DNA of 49,166 nt from Lactobacillus kefiranofaciens (GTDB taxonomy: Bacteria > Bacillota > Bacilli > Lactobacillales > Lactobacillaceae). Shown here in pieces: positions 3,060 through 10,884 of this stretch (position 1 is the stretch's first letter; every line of letters begins with the position of its first letter). Below the pieces are notes generated by a model that was given only the letters and a program-made list of their open reading frames with translations, was not told the origin of the DNA and did no database searches. The DNA lies in assembly GCF_900103655.1 (NCBI RefSeq), contig NZ_FMXC01000014.1, forward strand, positions 1-49,166. Reading direction: 5' to 3'. A program made the position numbers and the translations under genes.

Positions 3060-3213
3060 TCAAAACAATGTAAATAATTGTCTTATCCTAGTAATAATCC
3101 GACTTTGTTCTGATAACGGTGGAAAGGGTATGATCAATTCTCCTAGCTTAGTCGGACTTACTCTTGGTAAATTTACTCCATGCATCTCCCTCTTAATTTG
3201 GTTAAAAAATAGG
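3060..3213 (-). pseudogene. out-of-frame tail of hsdS (end of third TRD)
   Basis: Downstream of the hsdS stop, the minus strand in another frame continues as a normal HsdS sequence: FLSDLFFNQIKREMHGVN, then PRVSPTKLGELIIPFPPLSE and QSRIITRIRQLFTLF, with TGA at 3060-3062. It rejoins hsdS if the seven-T run on the coding strand (A-run at 3235-3241) is read as six, giving NNNFLYYVFLSD. The tail supplies the second half of a TRD and the start of a conserved helix, then ends. So even in frame the protein would stop within the third conserved region. Confidence 0.8.
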
Positions 3214-5154
3214 TCAGATAAGAAAACATAATACAAAAAAATTATTATTAGTATTGATTCCCTTTATAGGTAACAATTCAGTAGTGCAAACACCATCATT
3301 TGGCGCAATTAAGACTTTTCTTAAATATGGTCTTAATTTTGCAAATAATACATCGCCTTCTGTATAGACATATTTATTACTACCAACTGTACTAGTCACA
3401 ATTTCTTCTTTTATTAAATGACCACTATTAGCTTCAATATCTGCTAATTCAATTAAATTTTCACCGATCTGAACATCAGAAGGATTAACTGTTTTAAAAT
3501 TTCCCATTGTGGTAACAGCCTTACATCTAACCCATTCCCAACTATCAGGAATATCAAAAGGCTTCTCATCATCTGTAATCGGAGGAAGTGGCTTCGTCTT
3601 CTTGATCTTCTTTTCCTTGATCAGCTCTTGCTTCTCCGCCTTAATCTTCTCAAGCAACACACTCGCTGGCTCATCATTTGGATCTTGCTTAACCAATTTC
3701 CCTCGCATAGCCAAATCCAGCACCTTGGACTTCAGCAAAGTCTGAAGTTTCGCGTATTGTTGTGTAGATGTTTCGACTTTGCGAAGCAAAGCGAATAGCT
3801 GCGCTATTTTAGCAGCGTTTCGACTTTGCTCTGAAAGAGGTGGCAAAGGGAATGGTAAATGTTCCATATTTGTTTTAGTAATATGCTTCATTGTGGAACC
3901 ATGCAAGTCAGTTTCACCAACCACATTACGTTTATCTAATAAAAAATAGTATAAGAAGTTTTTATCAATAGCAGTATTATCATACTTTAATTTCCAAATG
4001 TGATAATGAAAAATTACACGACCACCATTCCAAATTTTAGGGCCAAAGGAAGCAGACCATGCATAAATTAAATCACCATTATCAATATATTTATTTGGAT
4101 CTAACTTAAGATCTGAATAATACCAAGAAGAATTAGTAAAAAGATTACCTACCCTTAGAACTGGTGTAAATTTATCATCATTCAATAATTCATTCTTTTT
4201 ATATGCTCTTCCATTATAAAAATTTACACCTGAGCCTAATATAATCCATTTCCATGACGCTGGAATATCATGTGGTTTTTCATCGCTATTCTTTAAATTA
4301 TCTTTCTCAAGCAACACACTGGCTGGCTCATCATTTGGATCTTGCTTAACCAATTTCCCACGCATCGCACACTGAAGTATAGATTGCTTCAACTTACCTT
4401 TGAATTCACTATCAATCTTTTGAAGACGATTATATGTTTCAGCGTATTGAGCAATTAGAGGCATAAACTTTTTTATTTTAGTAACTATACGTTTCTGTTC
4501 ATTTAAAGAAGGTAATGGTAATATCATACATGCTAAAAAATTAGTACCAACTCTTGGCATTTTTACACCATATACCGAAGCATTTATATTATCTACAAAA
4601 TATGGAGATAGTAAAACATAACGCAAATATAACGGATTAAGCTTTTTTTCATTAACAACTTCAATTGGCAACATTTCTGTAGTTGTATATCCATCATGCT
4701 GAGCAACTTCAACTTTTTGTAAATAAGGACGTAGTTTACCATATAAAACACTATTTTTTGAAAACTGATATTTATTACTTTTATATTCTGTACTATTAGT
4801 TTTCTTTGTAATAGATCTAAAACCGCCACCATTCTTATTAACATCTTTCATATCTACTACCCAAGCTCCGTTAGGAATTTCTCTCCCGGAAACAGATTTA
4901 AAATTACCAAACAATGTTACTTCTTTAAGTCTCACCCATTCCCAACTATCAGGAATATCGAATGGCTTTTCATCGTCGGTAATTGGTGGCAATGGCTTAG
5001 ATTTTTTTATCTTCCCATCTTTAATTAGTTGCTCTTTTTCTTTCTTAATCTTTTCAAGCAACACACTTGCAGGTTCATCATTCGGATCTTGTTTAACTAA
5101 TTTTCCTTCCATCGCATATTGCAAAATAGAAGCTCTTAATTGTTCAGGAGTCAT
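3214..5154 (-). CDS. hsdS: Type I restriction specificity subunit HsdS with two complete TRDs plus a partial third
   Basis: 646 aa against the usual 380-450. HsdS selects the DNA target of the type I HsdR-HsdM-HsdS complex through two target recognition domains (TRDs). Here the order is conserved region, TRD1 (about 72-225), conserved helix, TRD2 (about 300-445), conserved helix, and a third TRD start (about 545-646). The motif KLVKQDPNDEPASVLLEK occurs three times, and PLPPITDDEKPFDIPDSWEW occurs before TRD1 and again before TRD3. TRD1 and TRD3 resemble each other (GNFK, KLRPYL, TTELLPI). The frame ends early in TRD3 through one extra T in a homopolymer; the remainder follows in another frame. 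The gene overlaps hsdM by 1 nt. The first two TRDs alone would make a complete S subunit, so function is plausible. The repeats suggest growth by unequal recombination. Confidence 0.9.
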   Translation of the reverse strand: MTPEQLRASILQYAMEGKLVKQDPNDEPASVLLEKIKKEKEQLIKDGKIKKSKPLPPITDDEKPFDIPDSWEWVRLKEVTLFGNFKSVSGREIPNGAWVVDMKDVNKNGGGFRSITKKTNSTEYKSNKYQFSKNSVLYGKLRPYLQKVEVAQHDGYTTTEMLPIEVVNEKKLNPLYLRYVLLSPYFVDNINASVYGVKMPRVGTNFLACMILPLPSLNEQKRIVTKIKKFMPLIAQYAETYNRLQKIDSEFKGKLKQSILQCAMRGKLVKQDPNDEPASVLLEKDNLKNSDEKPHDIPASWKWIILGSGVNFYNGRAYKKNELLNDDKFTPVLRVGNLFTNSSWYYSDLKLDPNKYIDNGDLIYAWSASFGPKIWNGGRVIFHYHIWKLKYDNTAIDKNFLYYFLLDKRNVVGETDLHGSTMKHITKTNMEHLPFPLPPLSEQSRNAAKIAQLFALLRKVETSTQQYAKLQTLLKSKVLDLAMRGKLVKQDPNDEPASVLLEKIKAEKQELIKEKKIKKTKPLPPITDDEKPFDIPDSWEWVRCKAVTTMGNFKTVNPSDVQIGENLIELADIEANSGHLIKEEIVTSTVGSNKYVYTEGDVLFAKLRPYLRKVLIAPNDGVCTTELLPIKGINTNNNFFVLCFLI

Positions 5155-6629
5155 TAATCATCCTCCTCAAGTAACTTTTTAATTGCTGCCAATTGTTTAT
5201 CAATCTTGGCATTTAATTCTTTACGTTCTTTTTGATATTTATTCATTAATTCAAATGGTGGTAATATTTCTTCAGTTTCAGTTGAAAAGCCACATAAATC
5301 AAAGTTATAGTTATTTTTTGCTAATTCTTCTGGTGTATAAGCTTTTGATTTGTAATTATCATTATCATCTTTAATCTCGTGACGGTCATTCCACCATTTA
5401 CGTACTGGATCAAAATGTTCGAGCTTCATTGGACGAGTCTTAGAAAAATGTTTATATCCTTCTGGCATATCTAAACGGTAGAACCAAGTTTGTTTAGTTG
5501 GGCCAGTCTTATCAAAGAATAAAATATTTGTGGCAATTGAAGCATAAGGACTAAAAATACTACTTGGTAAACGAATAATAGTATGTAAATTAAAATCAGA
5601 AAGCATCTTTTTCTTGATATTTAACTTAGCTCCATCATTTCCAAACAAGAAACCATCTGGAAGAATCACACCAACTTTACCATCATCTTTAAGACGATAC
5701 ATAATCAAAGCTAAGAACAAATCTGCTGTTTCACTACTTTGAAGATCACTAGGAAAATTCTTTTTGATAATGGGCAATTCGGAGCCACCAAAAGGCGGAT
5801 TCATCATAATCAGATCAAATTTATCTTTTTCAGTATATTCGGTAATATTTTTTTCAAGCGAATTGCCATGAATAATATCAGGATTATCAACATCATGAAG
5901 CAATAAGTTAGTTACCGCAAGAATATATGGTTGTCCCTTCTTTTCAATACCAAAGACCGCATTATTATACTTTTTTCGATCTTCTACTGTATTTACTTGC
6001 TTCTTTAAAATATTTAACGAGCTAACAAGGAATCCACCTGTACCACAAGCTAAATCCGCAATCCGCTGTCCTAATTTTGGCTTCAACGTTTCAGCAATAA
6101 AATCAGTCAGAGCCCTAGGAGTATAGAACTCACCAGAACTACCGGCACTTTGCAATTCCTTTAAGATACTCTCATAAATGTCACCAAATAAATGACGATC
6201 TTTAGGATCAGTAAAATCTACATCATTTACTACATTTATAACTTGTCGTAATAAAACCCCATTTTTCATATAGTTATTGGTATCAATAAAGGCATCTTTC
6301 ACAATAGCCTTACTAATAGGAGTATCGGGAGTAACAGTAATCTCCTTTAATGTAGGTAACAATTGATTATTAATAAAATCTAGTAATTCATCACTAGTTA
6401 ACGCTTTACCATCTTTTCTATCTTGAGCCCATTCATGCCAATGCATCCCTTCCGGAATGATAGACTCATAATCATCCTGTTCAATTTCCCACACTTTTTC
6501 ACGATCATCATAAACTTTCAAAAACAAAATCCATGATAATTGTTCGATTCTCTGCGCATCACCGTTAATCCCCGGATCATTACGCATAATATCTCTAATC
6601 TTTTTTACAAATTGAGTTGTTCCTACCAT
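5154..6629 (-). CDS. hsdM: Type I restriction-modification methyltransferase subunit HsdM
   Basis: 491 aa, the N6-adenine methylase that joins HsdS to form the modification enzyme. The N-terminal HsdM helical domain (about 1-150) is followed by the SAM-binding motif I ADLACGTGGF at 191-200 and the catalytic motif IV NPPF at 277-280, both intact. A GEFYTPR segment at about 166-172 is typical of the family. The ribosome binding site AAGGAAG lies upstream of ATG 6629, 13 nt after hsdR. The stop overlaps the hsdS start (TAATG), consistent with translational coupling and fixed M:S stoichiometry. All catalytic motifs are present, in contrast to the second methylase-like gene at the head of this operon. 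Confidence 0.95.
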   Translation of the reverse strand: MVGTTQFVKKIRDIMRNDPGINGDAQRIEQLSWILFLKVYDDREKVWEIEQDDYESIIPEGMHWHEWAQDRKDGKALTSDELLDFINNQLLPTLKEITVTPDTPISKAIVKDAFIDTNNYMKNGVLLRQVINVVNDVDFTDPKDRHLFGDIYESILKELQSAGSSGEFYTPRALTDFIAETLKPKLGQRIADLACGTGGFLVSSLNILKKQVNTVEDRKKYNNAVFGIEKKGQPYILAVTNLLLHDVDNPDIIHGNSLEKNITEYTEKDKFDLIMMNPPFGGSELPIIKKNFPSDLQSSETADLFLALIMYRLKDDGKVGVILPDGFLFGNDGAKLNIKKKMLSDFNLHTIIRLPSSIFSPYASIATNILFFDKTGPTKQTWFYRLDMPEGYKHFSKTRPMKLEHFDPVRKWWNDRHEIKDDNDNYKSKAYTPEELAKNNYNFDLCGFSTETEEILPPFELMNKYQKERKELNAKIDKQLAAIKKLLEEDD

Positions 6630-6642
6630 TTACCGTGCTTCC

Positions 6643-8967
6643 TTAACTATAGATTCTATTCTTTATTTCTTTAATTGTGTTTTCATAATTTTTCTTGCCA
6701 CCAAAAGTCATAATGATTTTAATTGCACCACCGAACTTATCAAATTCAGGCAAACTTAATACCTGATTACTTTCCAAATCAGCAATACCATCATTCTTAT
6801 ACTTTTCAAGTAAAGTATTCAAAATTTCACGAGCAGCTCCCTGATATTTATCAAGAATCCCAGATTTCTTAACATTATTTACTCTTTCAGATTTAGTTAA
6901 CGGCTTTTGATTATAAGCAAGATGAACAATCAAATCAAAAGGATCCATATCCTTAATATTCTCTTCTTTCATCAACTCTTTATACAAAATCCCATGCTTC
7001 TCTAATTCATTAAGTAAAACTTGTTTCTTTTCTGCATCATTCCACTCAGTCAAAAAACTATCAAGAGTTGCATATTTTCCTAAAATATTCTTCTTAGTGT
7101 AATCCGTCAAAGATGTAGTAATAAGATTCCCATGTTCATCTAAATATTGAGTCTCATCCCCTACAACATTTACCTCATGATCAACTACATACTTAGGATG
7201 TTGTGAACCTTCGCCTACACAACCACCACAATGAGTATGAGGATAAGGAACACCTGTCGTACCACTGCCAGTACCACCATTAATTATCTCAATAGGTTCT
7301 CCATCAAATTCAGGATCCGCAAATAACCGCGAAACTCCACGAAAATCAATAATTGTAAAGTATTCTTTTCCGTGTGACGGATCCAATCTAGTACCGCGAC
7401 CAATAATTTGCTTGAATTCAGTCATTAAATTAATATTAGAATCCAAAACAATTATTTTGCAAGTTTTAACATTAACTCCTGTAGTTAATAATTTTGAAGT
7501 TGTAACAAGGGTTGGATATTTGCTAGTCACATTTTCAAAATTATCTAGCTGCTTTTTACCTTCTATATCATCACCTGTAATTCTCATCACATATTTATCA
7601 TTTTGAGCAACAAGATCACTATTTTGATTGATTAACTCTTCTCTCATTCGCTCAGCATGCTCAGTATCTTCACAAAAGAGAATAGTTTTATCCCAACGAG
7701 CATTTCTTTGTTTAAGGTAATCACTAACATATTTGGCAACTTCTTTAGTACGTTGTTCAATAATCATTGTTCGATCAAAATCTCGTGACGTATACTGTTT
7801 ATTTTTAATAACCTGTCCAAGCTTATCTTTTTCATTCTTTTTAGGCCAAAATCCTTTTATATCAATATCAAGATTTACTCTAATTACCTTATATGGAGCT
7901 AAAAATCCATCTTCAATTCCTTGCTTTAATGAATATGTATAAACCGGTTCACCAAAGTAAGCAATATTAGATCCGTCTTTATCATTTCTTGGAGTTGCGG
8001 TCATACCTAAATGGGTTACATTTGGTCCATCAAAATAATCAAGAATCTTACGCCATTGACTATCCTTTTTAGCTGAACCACGATGGGCTTCATCAATTAC
8101 AACTAAATCAAAGAAATCAGGTTTAAATTGTCTAAAAGGCTCATGTCCCTCCTCCTCATCTTTGCCAGCCAATTGTTGATACAAAGCAAAATGAATTGGA
8201 TAAGAACTGTCCATCTTACCACCTTGTACCTTAGTAATTTTATTTGATAAAGGATTAAAATCATCTGTCATTGCCTGATCAACTAAAATATTTCGATCAG
8301 CTAAGTATAAGACACGATGCTTAACTCCTGCATTGAGTAAACGATACACTACTTGAAAAGCAGTATAAGTCTTACCAGTACCTGTTGCCATCACTAATAG
8401 TACCCTTCTAGCACCATTAACAATCTTATTTATAATTCTATTTACTGCATTTTGCTGATAATAACGTGGAGAATAAACTTCTCGAGATGAAAAGTATGGC
8501 TCATTTATAATCTTAATTTGTTCTTCAGATGGCTGTTTTTCTTCTTTATATCTAGTCCAAAGCTCATCCTTAGTAGGAAAATCATTCAAAGAAATTGTTT
8601 TTTCCTTGCCGGTAATCATATCATGCTCAACAAAAGCATCCCCGTTAGAAGAATATACAAACGGAACATCTAAATCACGAGCATACCCAATTCCTTGTTG
8701 CAAACCTGCACCTGGTGCAGGATGCTTTTTTCTATCCTTAGCTTCGACCACAGCTATTGGATAATTAGGCTTATAGTACAAAAGATAATCTATTCTCTTT
8801 TTCTTACCGCGTGTGGCTACATCGTCCACTACATTAATCTGGCCATCTGTATAAGAATATTCCATTCTAGCATCTGCTTTTCTCCAACCAGTATGATCAA
8901 ATATAGCCGGTGAAATATATCTATTTTTAATATCTTCTTCTGATAAATTCATTTTTTCTAAGTCCAT
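6643..8967 (-). CDS. hsdR: Type I restriction endonuclease subunit HsdR
   Basis: 774 aa from ATG 8967, preferred over an in-frame upstream start because AAGAGG precedes it and it lies 1 nt past the stop of the preceding gene. HsdR is the translocase and nuclease of the type I complex. The N-terminal nuclease core shows RIDYLLY...AVVEAK (PD-(D/E)XK). The SF2 motor carries Walker A ATGTGKT, the DEAH box VVIDEAH, GMTATP, and the motif VI stretch QIIGRGTRLDP. A Cys/His/Gly-rich insert (HTHCGGC) and a C-terminal EcoEI-type helical domain follow. Nothing is missing. It is second in the operon, so its expression depends on the upstream methylase-TRD fusion gene. Confidence 0.95.
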   Translation of the reverse strand: MDLEKMNLSEEDIKNRYISPAIFDHTGWRKADARMEYSYTDGQINVVDDVATRGKKKRIDYLLYYKPNYPIAVVEAKDRKKHPAPGAGLQQGIGYARDLDVPFVYSSNGDAFVEHDMITGKEKTISLNDFPTKDELWTRYKEEKQPSEEQIKIINEPYFSSREVYSPRYYQQNAVNRIINKIVNGARRVLLVMATGTGKTYTAFQVVYRLLNAGVKHRVLYLADRNILVDQAMTDDFNPLSNKITKVQGGKMDSSYPIHFALYQQLAGKDEEEGHEPFRQFKPDFFDLVVIDEAHRGSAKKDSQWRKILDYFDGPNVTHLGMTATPRNDKDGSNIAYFGEPVYTYSLKQGIEDGFLAPYKVIRVNLDIDIKGFWPKKNEKDKLGQVIKNKQYTSRDFDRTMIIEQRTKEVAKYVSDYLKQRNARWDKTILFCEDTEHAERMREELINQNSDLVAQNDKYVMRITGDDIEGKKQLDNFENVTSKYPTLVTTSKLLTTGVNVKTCKIIVLDSNINLMTEFKQIIGRGTRLDPSHGKEYFTIIDFRGVSRLFADPEFDGEPIEIINGGTGSGTTGVPYPHTHCGGCVGEGSQHPKYVVDHEVNVVGDETQYLDEHGNLITTSLTDYTKKNILGKYATLDSFLTEWNDAEKKQVLLNELEKHGILYKELMKEENIKDMDPFDLIVHLAYNQKPLTKSERVNNVKKSGILDKYQGAAREILNTLLEKYKNDGIADLESNQVLSLPEFDKFGGAIKIIMTFGGKKNYENTIKEIKNRIYS

Positions 8968-8968
8968 T

Positions 8969-10768
8969 TTAATCCTCTTTATGCAAAATTTTGTCCATAC
9001 CCCAAGAATTAAAAAATTCATTATCATTTTGAATATACTTTCTCATCAATTCCTGTTTTTGCTTATCTAAACTTAACTTTTCCTGTTCAAGTTTTTCAAC
9101 TGCTTTATCTTGCTTTTCTCTTGCAATTACTGGAACTTTCAACTGCTCTAAATCAGTTGGAGAAATAATTGAAATTGTTGTTCCACCAGCTGCTTGTTGA
9201 ATAAAGAATTTACCCAACGGACTGTTCAAATATAACGCTAGCCATTTCATATTTGTATTATTATTTTTGGGCCTTAAAATCACCATATTTGCATTAGCAA
9301 TAGCATTTCCTAATGATTTATCAACATATGCTATTTTTCCTAATGTTCCTCTAATTGAAAACAAAACATCATTCTTTCGAACTAAATATCGATCTGGATT
9401 ACTTGATATTGAGATTTCAGATAAAGCTTTATTTTTTACTACTAAGTCATCTATATCGGTGATCTTTATTAATGCCAAGGTAGTATCGCCATTTTCATTT
9501 CTTCTAATTACATTATAGCCTCGCTTAATCTCCACTAATTCTCCAAGATTGATCATCTTCGCATCCATTAAATTTTGCTGACTAATACTATAAGTCGTTT
9601 GATCAATTTCTATTGAAGTTGGCCACACATATCTTTTAACACTCAAGGTATCCTTATATTCTGAATTCTTTATAACTCTTGAGACACCTGATTGATCAAC
9701 TTTGTTTTGATACAAACTTACAATTTTTTCTATTCCTAATGGTGTTAATTGATTAAAATTTCTAAGGACTTTTTCATACCAACCATTTTGGTCAGCTTCA
9801 ATAAATTGAATTTTGCCTTTAAACGCACCTTTATTTCTATTAAGAATTAATAGATTAACGGGAATAGCTGTTCCAAGCAAAAATTTACTTGGCAAAGAAA
9901 CAACAGCTTCAACTAGATCTAAATCAATGAGATTCTTTCTTATTTTAGCTGCTAAACCCGATTGAAATAATGGTCCATCTGCAACCAAAAGAACAGCTTT
10001 ACCATTATCAGCAATTGAAGAAATAGCATTACTAATAAAAGCATAATCACCTCTTCTTGGAATCTTTCCATAACGAAAACGATTAAAACTATTTTGATTG
10101 ATGACTTCAGAATTAATTATCATCGATATAGGTGGAAAACTAATGACTTTATCAAATTGTTTTAATTGTCCGTCCTCAATGTATTTTGGATCATTTAAAA
10201 CATCTCCAACAAGAATATTCAAATTATTTGCTTTAATGAGTTTGCCATTCAAATAAGCAATTCCTGCCAACACTGGATTTATTTCTTGGATAGTTACCTG
10301 TTGATTTTTATTTTCACGTAAAATATCTAGCCATGCACCTTCACACCCTGAAGTTGGGTCAAGGATCGTATCAGTCCTCTTAACAAGAGCCAGCTTCATA
10401 GCTAGCCTATCTATTTTTGAAGACTGAATCCTTCTTTCTATGCGACTATGTTTAACCTTGCTATTAAGCCAAATAATTAAATCTTGTGAACTAATTTTTC
10501 TAATATAATTCAAGGTTTGAAAAAGCTTATTATCTTCAACATCATCTAATTCATCTTTAATCCAGTTTTGAAGTTCTTGAAGAGCAAAAATATTACTTTT
10601 ATCCTTGCAAGAGAATATGCGACTAAAAAATTCTACTTTTTTAGTAATTGGACGATCATCTTTATTTATTCTTAAAAGTATTTCGCCAGCTACTATAGGC
10701 TTTATAATACTAGCTTCATCTCTATTAACTTGATACAGCACATTTAGTTTTGCATTCTGATTATTCAT
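8969..10768 (-). CDS. methylase-like/TRD fusion with degenerate catalytic motifs, first gene of the hsd operon
   Basis: 599 aa. Residues about 110-340 have the HsdM-type N6-methylase fold, but motif I reads DPTSGCEGAW (usual G-x-G-G broken by Glu) and the motif IV position reads DKVISFPPIS at 206-215, with Phe where the catalytic Asn of NPPF belongs. Residues about 405-530 form one HsdS-like TRD (LGELVEIKRGYN, LVRKNDVLFSIRGTLGKIAY), then a charged coiled coil (about 540-580). It is therefore an M-S fusion, probably unable to methylate. ATG 10768 follows an ideal AAGGAGGT site and a likely promoter; hsdR starts 1 nt after its stop. It could be a sequence-specific DNA binder, a regulator of the hsd operon or an accessory specificity factor. 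These roles are inference; the degenerate motifs are directly visible. Confidence 0.75.
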   Translation of the reverse strand: MNNQNAKLNVLYQVNRDEASIIKPIVAGEILLRINKDDRPITKKVEFFSRIFSCKDKSNIFALQELQNWIKDELDDVEDNKLFQTLNYIRKISSQDLIIWLNSKVKHSRIERRIQSSKIDRLAMKLALVKRTDTILDPTSGCEGAWLDILRENKNQQVTIQEINPVLAGIAYLNGKLIKANNLNILVGDVLNDPKYIEDGQLKQFDKVISFPPISMIINSEVINQNSFNRFRYGKIPRRGDYAFISNAISSIADNGKAVLLVADGPLFQSGLAAKIRKNLIDLDLVEAVVSLPSKFLLGTAIPVNLLILNRNKGAFKGKIQFIEADQNGWYEKVLRNFNQLTPLGIEKIVSLYQNKVDQSGVSRVIKNSEYKDTLSVKRYVWPTSIEIDQTTYSISQQNLMDAKMINLGELVEIKRGYNVIRRNENGDTTLALIKITDIDDLVVKNKALSEISISSNPDRYLVRKNDVLFSIRGTLGKIAYVDKSLGNAIANANMVILRPKNNNTNMKWLALYLNSPLGKFFIQQAAGGTTISIISPTDLEQLKVPVIAREKQDKAVEKLEQEKLSLDKQKQELMRKYIQNDNEFFNSWGMDKILHKED

Positions 10769-10790
10769 ATTAGTTTACCTCCTTGTATAA

Positions 10791-10819
10791 ATATTAGTAC
10801 TACTTCTGCATAAATGCAA
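10791..10819 (-). promoter_or_regulatory. putative promoter of the hsd operon
   Basis: On the minus strand TTGCAT (10814-10819), a 17-nt spacer and TAATAT (10791-10796), just upstream of the AAGGAGGT site of the methylase-TRD fusion gene. The implied leader is very short. There is no other promoter-like gap in the operon, since the later genes abut or overlap. Confidence 0.45.
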
Positions 10820-10841: not shown

Positions 10842-10874
10842 AAAAAACTTGATGCCAAACTGACATCAAGTTTT
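10842..10874 (-). terminator. intrinsic terminator of the zinc-ribbon protein gene
   Basis: On the minus strand an 11-bp perfect stem (10864-10874 with 10844-10854), a 9-nt loop and TTTTTT. It lies 10 bp after the stop of the zinc-ribbon gene and insulates it from the hsd promoter. Confidence 0.85.
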
Positions 10875-10884
10875 CAATTATCTT

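Follow-up and report, generated by a model that had tools for sequence, protein, structure and literature searches.

A type I methylase half-unit with degenerate catalytic motifs as a probable autoregulatory transcription factor at the head of a restriction-modification operon in Lactobacillus kefiranofaciens

The fusion gene and its operon

The window analysed in this work is a stretch of 49,166 nt from Lactobacillus kefiranofaciens (contig NZ_FMXC01000014.1), and all coordinates of the locus refer to it. An operon on its reverse strand starts with a gene in which a degenerate N6-methylase domain is joined to a single target recognition domain (TRD), followed by the type I restriction-modification (R-M) genes hsdR, hsdM and hsdS (Table 1). 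The first gene had been described in the initial annotation as full length, with a good ribosome binding site and adjoining hsdR, and this was borne out by the ORF list: the reading frame is complete, it is preceded by AGGAGG, and a gap of 1 nt separates it from hsdR. A terminator-like hairpin lies between the upstream gene and the operon, and therefore the fusion gene probably starts its own transcription unit.

Table 1 Features of the operon and of its first gene in the window
Feature	Coordinates	Strand	Evidence
Fusion gene for a pseudo-methylase and a TRD, 599 aa, at the head of the operon	8969..10768	-	ORF list, Pfam, AlphaFold2 model, homologue
Degenerate N6-methylase domain, residues 113-384	9617..10432	-	Pfam N6_Mtase; nearest solved relatives
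Broken motif I, residues 137-146, DPTSGCEGAW (canonical DPxxGxG)	10331..10360	-	Sequence motif comparison
Broken motif IV, residues 211-214, FPPI (canonical NPPF/Y)	10127..10138	-	Sequence; FPPI also in L156
Single HsdS-type TRD, residues 403-568	9065..9562	-	Pfam, TRD identity comparison, model, Foldseek
Long C-terminal helix, residues 550-588	9005..9121	-	AlphaFold2 secondary structure
hsdR, EcoAI family, start 1 nt beyond the fusion stop codon (8971-8969)	6643..8967	-	Pfam, NF046051
hsdM with canonical motifs (NPPF)	5154..6629	-	ORF list, Pfam, motif scan
hsdS, repeated TRD/conserved-region units, third TRD frameshifted	3214..5154	-	ORF list, repeat search
Intrinsic terminator-like hairpin beyond the upstream gene, between that gene and the fusion operon	10843..10875	-	Terminator scan
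Candidate operator AGTA-gtactaa-TATT, one mismatch to AGTA-N7-TACT	10790..10804	-	600 of 5000 gap shuffles reach it; not significant alone
Weak candidate promoter TTGCAT-N17-TAATAT	10791..10819	-	Read by eye; not called by promoter scan

The domain structure of the fusion protein was assigned with Pfam, which placed N6_Mtase at residues 119-384 (3.8e-39; 135.3 bits against a gathering cut-off of 20.4) and one Methylase_S at residues 403-568 (1.5e-13; 51.7 bits against a gathering cut-off of 22). The third match at E 0.01 was a sub-threshold TaqI_C. A type I HsdS has two TRDs split by conserved helices, and the fusion has one Methylase_S stretch. The AlphaFold2 model (pLDDT 81) ends in one long helix, and this helix is probably a coiled coil for dimerisation. 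Motif I was located at D137 (D137-PTSGCEGAW) and motif IV at F211-P-P-I214, and motif X, searched with the pattern [EQ][FY][YFH][TS]P, was absent, so that all three motifs of an active HsdM (X; I, DxxxGxG; IV, NPP[FY]) fail in this protein. An HsdM-like fold with broken motifs, a single TRD and a coiled coil had been proposed for it, and this layout was confirmed by Pfam, by the motif reading and by the models, with the long helix as the probable coiled coil. The TIGR00497 profile did not discriminate between the fusion (75.9 bits) and the ordinary hsdM of the window (76.2 bits), as both score below its cut-off of 242.75 bits.

The three genes behind the fusion had been called intact. This holds for hsdR, which reached 1064.7 bits with the EcoAI-family profile NF046051, and for hsdM, in which motifs X, I and IV are all present, but hsdS is not plainly intact because its third TRD carries a frameshift near 3214-3236, beyond which the ORF at 3060-3236 carries on S-like sequence. 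An 80-nt conserved-region repeat occurs three times in hsdS (80-84% identity to the reference) and a 225-nt repeat twice (75%). The region 3060-5154 (reverse strand) may have grown by recombination between these repeats.

The fusion family and the loss of catalytic motifs

Whole-genome and plasmid searches gave a family set of 48 members including the window, with L190 taken as the same plasmid as L159 and not counted. At E 1e-50 the fusion was present in 11 of the 397 genomes of the window's bacterial family. The nearest relative, L156, is a protein of Lactobacillus amylovorus plasmid p2, 42% identical over 96% of the query and with FPPI kept. A search of genome contigs with the window protein returned one distant cyanobacterial match and nothing else, and nine phage records held no match spanning 80% of the query. 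One M/S protein of 605 aa on a plasmid of the cyanobacterium Oscillatoria (L161:3545-5362) has the same layout, with FPPF as motif IV, and lies downstream of hsdR. It is a far outlier and was left out of the motif counts and the later site counts; since it is so distant from the family, degenerate M-S fusions may also have emerged outside it.

Motif IV takes many forms in the family, such as FPPI, LPPL, MPPV, VPPV, VPPI, TAPM, VVPF, EPPF, NFPF and SPPF among others. The pattern [NDS]PP[FYW] was found in 9 of the 48 fusions and NPP[FYW] in 2, DxxxGxG in 13 and motif X in 2, and the three motifs occur together in two members only (L090 and L095). When the same kind of pattern was applied to 31 HsdM proteins of the fusion loci (HsdM-class ORFs of at least 440 aa; 38 were so classed and 7 fusions were removed by hand), NPP[FYW] was found in 30 and all three motifs in 23. 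Among HsdM rows from other loci, repeats included, NPP[FYW] was kept in 70 of 75. A smaller comparison with nine HsdMs, one of them (L098) from a locus without a fusion, gave all three motifs in 9 of 9 and is thus kinder than the 23 of 31. In a tree built from 56 rows (47 fusions and the nine HsdMs), a branch with support of 100/100 sets the HsdMs apart from the fusions, the window fusion pairs with the L. amylovorus plasmid protein (100/96), and L090 and L095 are nearest to the HsdMs with support of 89/87, which is not strong. The picture is as if catalytic activity were ancestral and had been lost early in the family.

These family-wide motif losses support the suggestion of the initial annotation that the subunit would read DNA and not methylate it. 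It is very unlikely that the fusion still methylates DNA by way of unusual motifs, a reading to which the nine [NDS]PP[FYW] members and the apparently intact L090 and L095 could be assigned, and under which methylation of sites in its own promoter could still give autoregulation. The window protein lacks all three motifs, including the Asn which in PacII M2 hydrogen-bonds the amino group of the target, according to the portion of PMC9613975 available. The matching residue is Phe in the window, and FPPI is found in L156 as well.

Pairwise dN/dS could be computed for 15 of 17 pairs and was 0.045-0.34 in these, and low in both the methylase domain and the TRD. These are simple Nei-Gojobori counts over pairs that are not independent and in several cases near saturation, and the pairs come from relatives, as the window gene has no close enough relative. 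In the sister loci L083 and L084 the R-M genes behind the fusion are in pieces or were not found, while in L176 and L177 they are kept; all four loci have a full-length fusion. The view that the gene is maintained and not decayed is therefore supported by purifying selection in relatives, by motif losses common to the family and by FPPI being kept at 42% identity. A decaying remnant of an M-S fusion would agree with the lost catalytic motifs and with the internal stop codon of L077, yet it was rejected as extremely improbable on the dN/dS values, which are low in the methylase domain too, and on the FPPI common to the window and L156.

Genomic contexts of the fusion

Context classes were counted by hand. 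Type I R-M genes follow the fusion in 29 of the 48 loci, nine of them with one small ORF in between. The other loci have a broken R-M system (1), other helicase/methylase restriction genes (2), a Wzz-type gene first (5), a sigma-70 gene (3), a PRD/PTS operon (1) or nothing clear (7, two of these at contig ends). The order fusion-hsdR-hsdM-hsdS of the window was searched for in the other loci and found exactly in L090, whose hsdR matches that of the window at 5e-246. In L179, R, M and S genes follow the fusion after a small ORF. For L089 (8876-9673) and L096 (8128-8805), a gene of 225-265 aa lies between the fusion and the R-M genes; the two proteins have a common CDGH motif and no convincing Pfam family, and a gene of like size stands at the same place in L179-L182. 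In the Lactococcus plasmid pJM2A (L157:12086-15551) the fusion and hsdM are followed by hsdS, by a gene for a xerA-type recombinase and by additional S fragments in either orientation, an arrangement which suggests a shuffling specificity locus.

For L072 the presence of further capsule genes was checked with Pfam. The terminator scan gave nothing between the fusion and wzz in L072 and L076, and in L072 a sequence with a 10-of-12 promoter match lies between the two genes, so the capsule genes of L072 may have their own promoter. Another capsule-locus fusion (L077:7733-9259) has an internal stop. The sigma-70 contexts belong to two lineages, L080/L081 and L097. The sigma factor behind the fusion in L097 (6281-7504) is RpoD-like, with regions 1.2, 2, 3 and 4, and is followed by a large helicase protein. 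In L081 a single ORF of 909 aa (6344-9073) joins the fusion and sigma-70, which in L080 are two genes overlapping by 26 nt. This was not counted as a true sigma-factor domain fusion, as by comparison with L080 the joint looks like a length change in an A-run, which could be an error, slippage or phase variation.

The fusion was then compared with the HsdS of the adjoining genes in 13 pairs of loci. The fusions of L093/L094 are 99% identical and their HsdS 36%, and the corresponding values are 99 and 32% for L157/L158, 97 and 33% for L180/L181, 97 and 34% for L096/L180, and 97 and 36% for L096/L181. More divergent fusions gave a similar result (L091/L093, 77 and 36%; L085/L087, 90 and 37%; L085/L088, 85 and 33%; L087/L088, 84 and 39%). 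In two pairs the whole system differs: the fusions of L096/L179 are 99% identical, with M, S and R at 28, 21 and 23%, and those of L138/L139 are 72% identical, with M, S and R at 29, 25 and 27%. The exceptions are L176/L177, which are alike throughout, and L093/L188, whose HsdS identity (58%) is closer to that of the fusion (73%). In some pairs HsdM and HsdR are more conserved than the fusion (both 92% in L091/L093, against 77%). The identity of the fusion TRD follows that of the methylase domain with r = 0.89 over all pairs of 40 loci, near-copies included. Since HsdS is exchanged behind a near-constant fusion, the DNA reader of the fusion is, judging from these identities, constant while the restriction target changes.

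These data bear on the suggestion that the protein alters the target choice of the R-M complex. As an accessory subunit, it would be a second M/S half joining HsdM, HsdS or HsdR, like M1 beside M2 in PacII_M1M2S. PacII M1/M2 are the closest solved relatives, 29 of 48 members stand in an R-M operon, and single-TRD units are expected to dimerise, all of which would fit such a subunit. Even so it is quite improbable: fusions 97-99% identical stand before HsdS that are just 32-36% identical, and those of L096 and L179 before M, S and R that are wholly different; in some members the fusion is followed by capsule, PTS or sigma genes, and the stretch fetched contains no R-M genes; and L084 keeps the fusion without remaining R-M genes behind it. 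A role as R-M specificity subunit was thus rejected, mainly because HsdS or whole R-M systems are exchanged behind a constant fusion, and the altered target choice is disfavoured on the same grounds and because the fusion also heads capsule and PTS operons.

A bipartite palindrome upstream of the family

A palindrome, TTAGTA-N7-TACTAA, was first seen upstream of the capsule group, with differing gap sequences. All 4-letter half-sites with gaps of 3-11 were then ranked over 32 reduced loci (an earlier set, still containing L087), and AGTA-N7-TACT came first with 10 of 32. In 300 shuffles this word had a mean of 0.18 and a maximum of 3, and the best count of any word was 7. Exact sites were counted at the operon heads in 19 of 40 loci. 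For the later counts a reduced set of 39 loci was used, without the near-duplicates L075, L081, L084, L158, L094, L088, L087 and L177 and the truncated L077. The short form GTA-N7-TAC is present in 24 of the 39, whereas every other gap length between 0 and 16 gave 1-6 loci and shuffles gave a mean of 2.07 (maximum 7). The long form AGTA-N7-TACT is present in 17 (shuffles: mean 0.27, maximum 3). After near-copies were merged (L083 with L176; L096 with L179-L181), GTA-N7-TAC was found in 23 of 35. The 200 nt before the gene alone contain the short form in 21 and the long form in 13 of the 39 loci.

Control loci with hsdM and without a fusion gave, over 200 nt, the short form in 2 of 65 and the long form in none; before the removal of repeats the counts were 5 and 0 of 73. 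The set of 65 was obtained by removing repeats and the TRD-containing locus L060, which itself carries GTA-N7-TAC. Before the other ORFs of the fusion loci the long form occurs in 5 of 440 cases, four of which are the small ORF directly upstream of the fusion, and no exact AGTA-N7-TACT was found in the 300 nt beyond the fusion stop in 40 loci. Nine loci were fetched after the long form had been fixed; three of them carry it, two being near-copies of L083, and five carry the short form, which was however defined after inspecting them, so that this held-out check is a weak one. The reverse pattern TAC-N9-GTA was found in 12 of the 39 loci, 8 of which have it in overlap with GTA-N7-TAC; a further half-site may thus often lie 22 nt from the first, i.e. 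about two helical turns.

In nine groups the 260 nt that precede the operon head contain two sites, spaced 89-178 nt. The best promoter-like sequence lies between both sites in eight of these nine (the exception is L080), although the groups were counted by hand, the starts are predicted and some of the promoters match the consensus at 8 of 12 positions only; those of L086 and L157 match at 12 of 12. Relative to the predicted start, the site centres are near -54 and +35 to +44 in L083, L086, L160 and L178, and at -45/+52 in L188, -69/+72 in L157, -76/+57 in L138 and -110/+68 in L072. Such bracketing sites resemble those of the gal operon, where paired operators repress by looping.

An exact GTA-N7-TAC is missing in 15 of the 39 reduced loci, including the window, the PTS locus L073 and the sigma locus L097, so that some subfamilies would bind something else or nothing. 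No exact operator was found in the 116-nt gap before the window fusion; the best candidate is a one-mismatch site which overlaps the weak -10-like TAATAT. The promoter candidate to which this TAATAT belongs aligns in place with the promoter TTCTGC-N17-TATAAT of L156, and the GTA-N7-TAC of L156, which is exact, stands at about the same distance (-41) as the candidate site of the window.

The loci without the site would also be accounted for if the palindrome belonged to a different regulator and the fusion were a passenger in regulated operons. This is unlikely, because the site accompanies the fusion across families and in several contexts (R-M, capsule and, in L080/L081, sigma), hardly ever precedes hsdM in loci that lack a fusion, and consists of two inverted half-sites of 3-4 nt with a constant gap, which is the geometry of a type I recognition site. 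Among the roles suggested in the initial annotation, regulation of the operon is favoured by the palindrome upstream in 24 of 39 reduced loci and the bracketed promoter in eight of nine groups, with the reservation that the site of the window is mismatched. The role of sensing the modification state, also suggested there, is neither favoured nor disfavoured by these data.

Proposed function

Taken together, the sequence comparisons make it fairly probable that the fusion is an inactive type I methylase half-unit which has been reused as an autoregulatory transcription factor. Two copies of the protein would pair through the long helix, and their two identical TRDs would read the two inverted GTA half-sites, as an S subunit does with its two TRDs. 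Half-S dimers reading palindromes are known from work on type I systems. The dead M domains would enclose the DNA like a clamp. Bound at sites flanking a promoter, the protein could repress by looping, or activate from the upstream site and block at the downstream one. By either route the fusion would adjust its own expression together with that of the downstream restriction, capsule, PTS or sigma genes, and in the window it would control hsdR-hsdM-hsdS.

A further possibility, to which a low probability is given, is that the fusion serves as a decoy sensing anti-restriction: DNA mimics of invading phages and plasmids, such as Ocr or ArdA, would pull it off its operators and so release R-M, capsule or sigma genes just when restriction is blocked. 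Such mimics would capture the fusion because the clamp shape of a type I M-S unit is kept. The support is indirect: PacII M1M2S is bound by Ocr and ArdA in competition with its DNA, as stated in part of PMC9613975, the solved folds matching the fusion include Ocr- and ArdA-bound type I methylases, and the closest solved relative of the TRD was crystallised together with a second protein, Prx.

If the autoregulatory function is true, the family would represent a type of transcription factor for which the literature searched has no description, in which DNA reading was kept and the chemistry lost. It would bear on the control of type I restriction operons, for which a candidate operator is offered. 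Genes annotated as N-6 DNA methylase, for example the plasmid members, would be regulators and not epigenetic writers, which would affect the matching of methylomes to genes, and the specificity of a TRD could be proposed from promoters alone.

Comparison with known systems

No prior description of the fusion family was found in the open-access PMC text searched. The closest solved relatives of the methylase half, both by sequence and by fold, are PacII M1/M2 and EcoR124I HsdM, together with other type I M subunits. These are working M subunits with a separate S of two TRDs, whereas the fusion is without motifs X, I and IV and has one TRD of its own. The closest solved match to the TRD and long helix is Esub1 (PDB 8vsq, 8vsr; family profile 2.2e-38, Foldseek rank 1), but its chains of about 200 residues are too short for a methylase domain, unlike the fusion. 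The title of 8vsr gives Esub1 as co-crystallised with Prx, which we take to be the streptococcal phage protein paratox. Among the MADS genes, MAD5 profiles match the TRD of the fusion and a MAD2 profile its methylase half; the MAD5 score is however 58.7 bits against an NCBIfam cut-off of 400 bits, and the window has an ordinary type I R-M operon at this locus, unlike MADS.

In the proposed function the fusion is closest to the regulators of R-M operons. C proteins such as C.Kpn2I and C.Csp231I act at the promoter of an R-M operon and control it by feedback, as far as excerpts of PMC6237814 and PMC3115060 describe it, which is what is proposed here for the fusion. They resemble the helix-turn-helix repressor cI (PMC12255303, in part), whereas the fusion is an M-S half-unit of 600 residues and, at 599 aa, no small helix-turn-helix protein of the C protein family by Pfam at E 0.01. 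As would be expected of a controller, the gene heads the R-M operon in the window, and type I R-M genes follow the fusion in 28 further of the 48 family loci, some with a small ORF before the fusion. RptR likewise heads a type I R-M island and represses its own promoter at conserved palindromes; as described in the same part of PMC12255303 this four-helix protein of 9 kDa binds 6-bp TAGCTA repeats, and is set apart from the fusion by its size and described fold. The fusion would work like an R-M controller in function, and its architecture would be new for a regulator.
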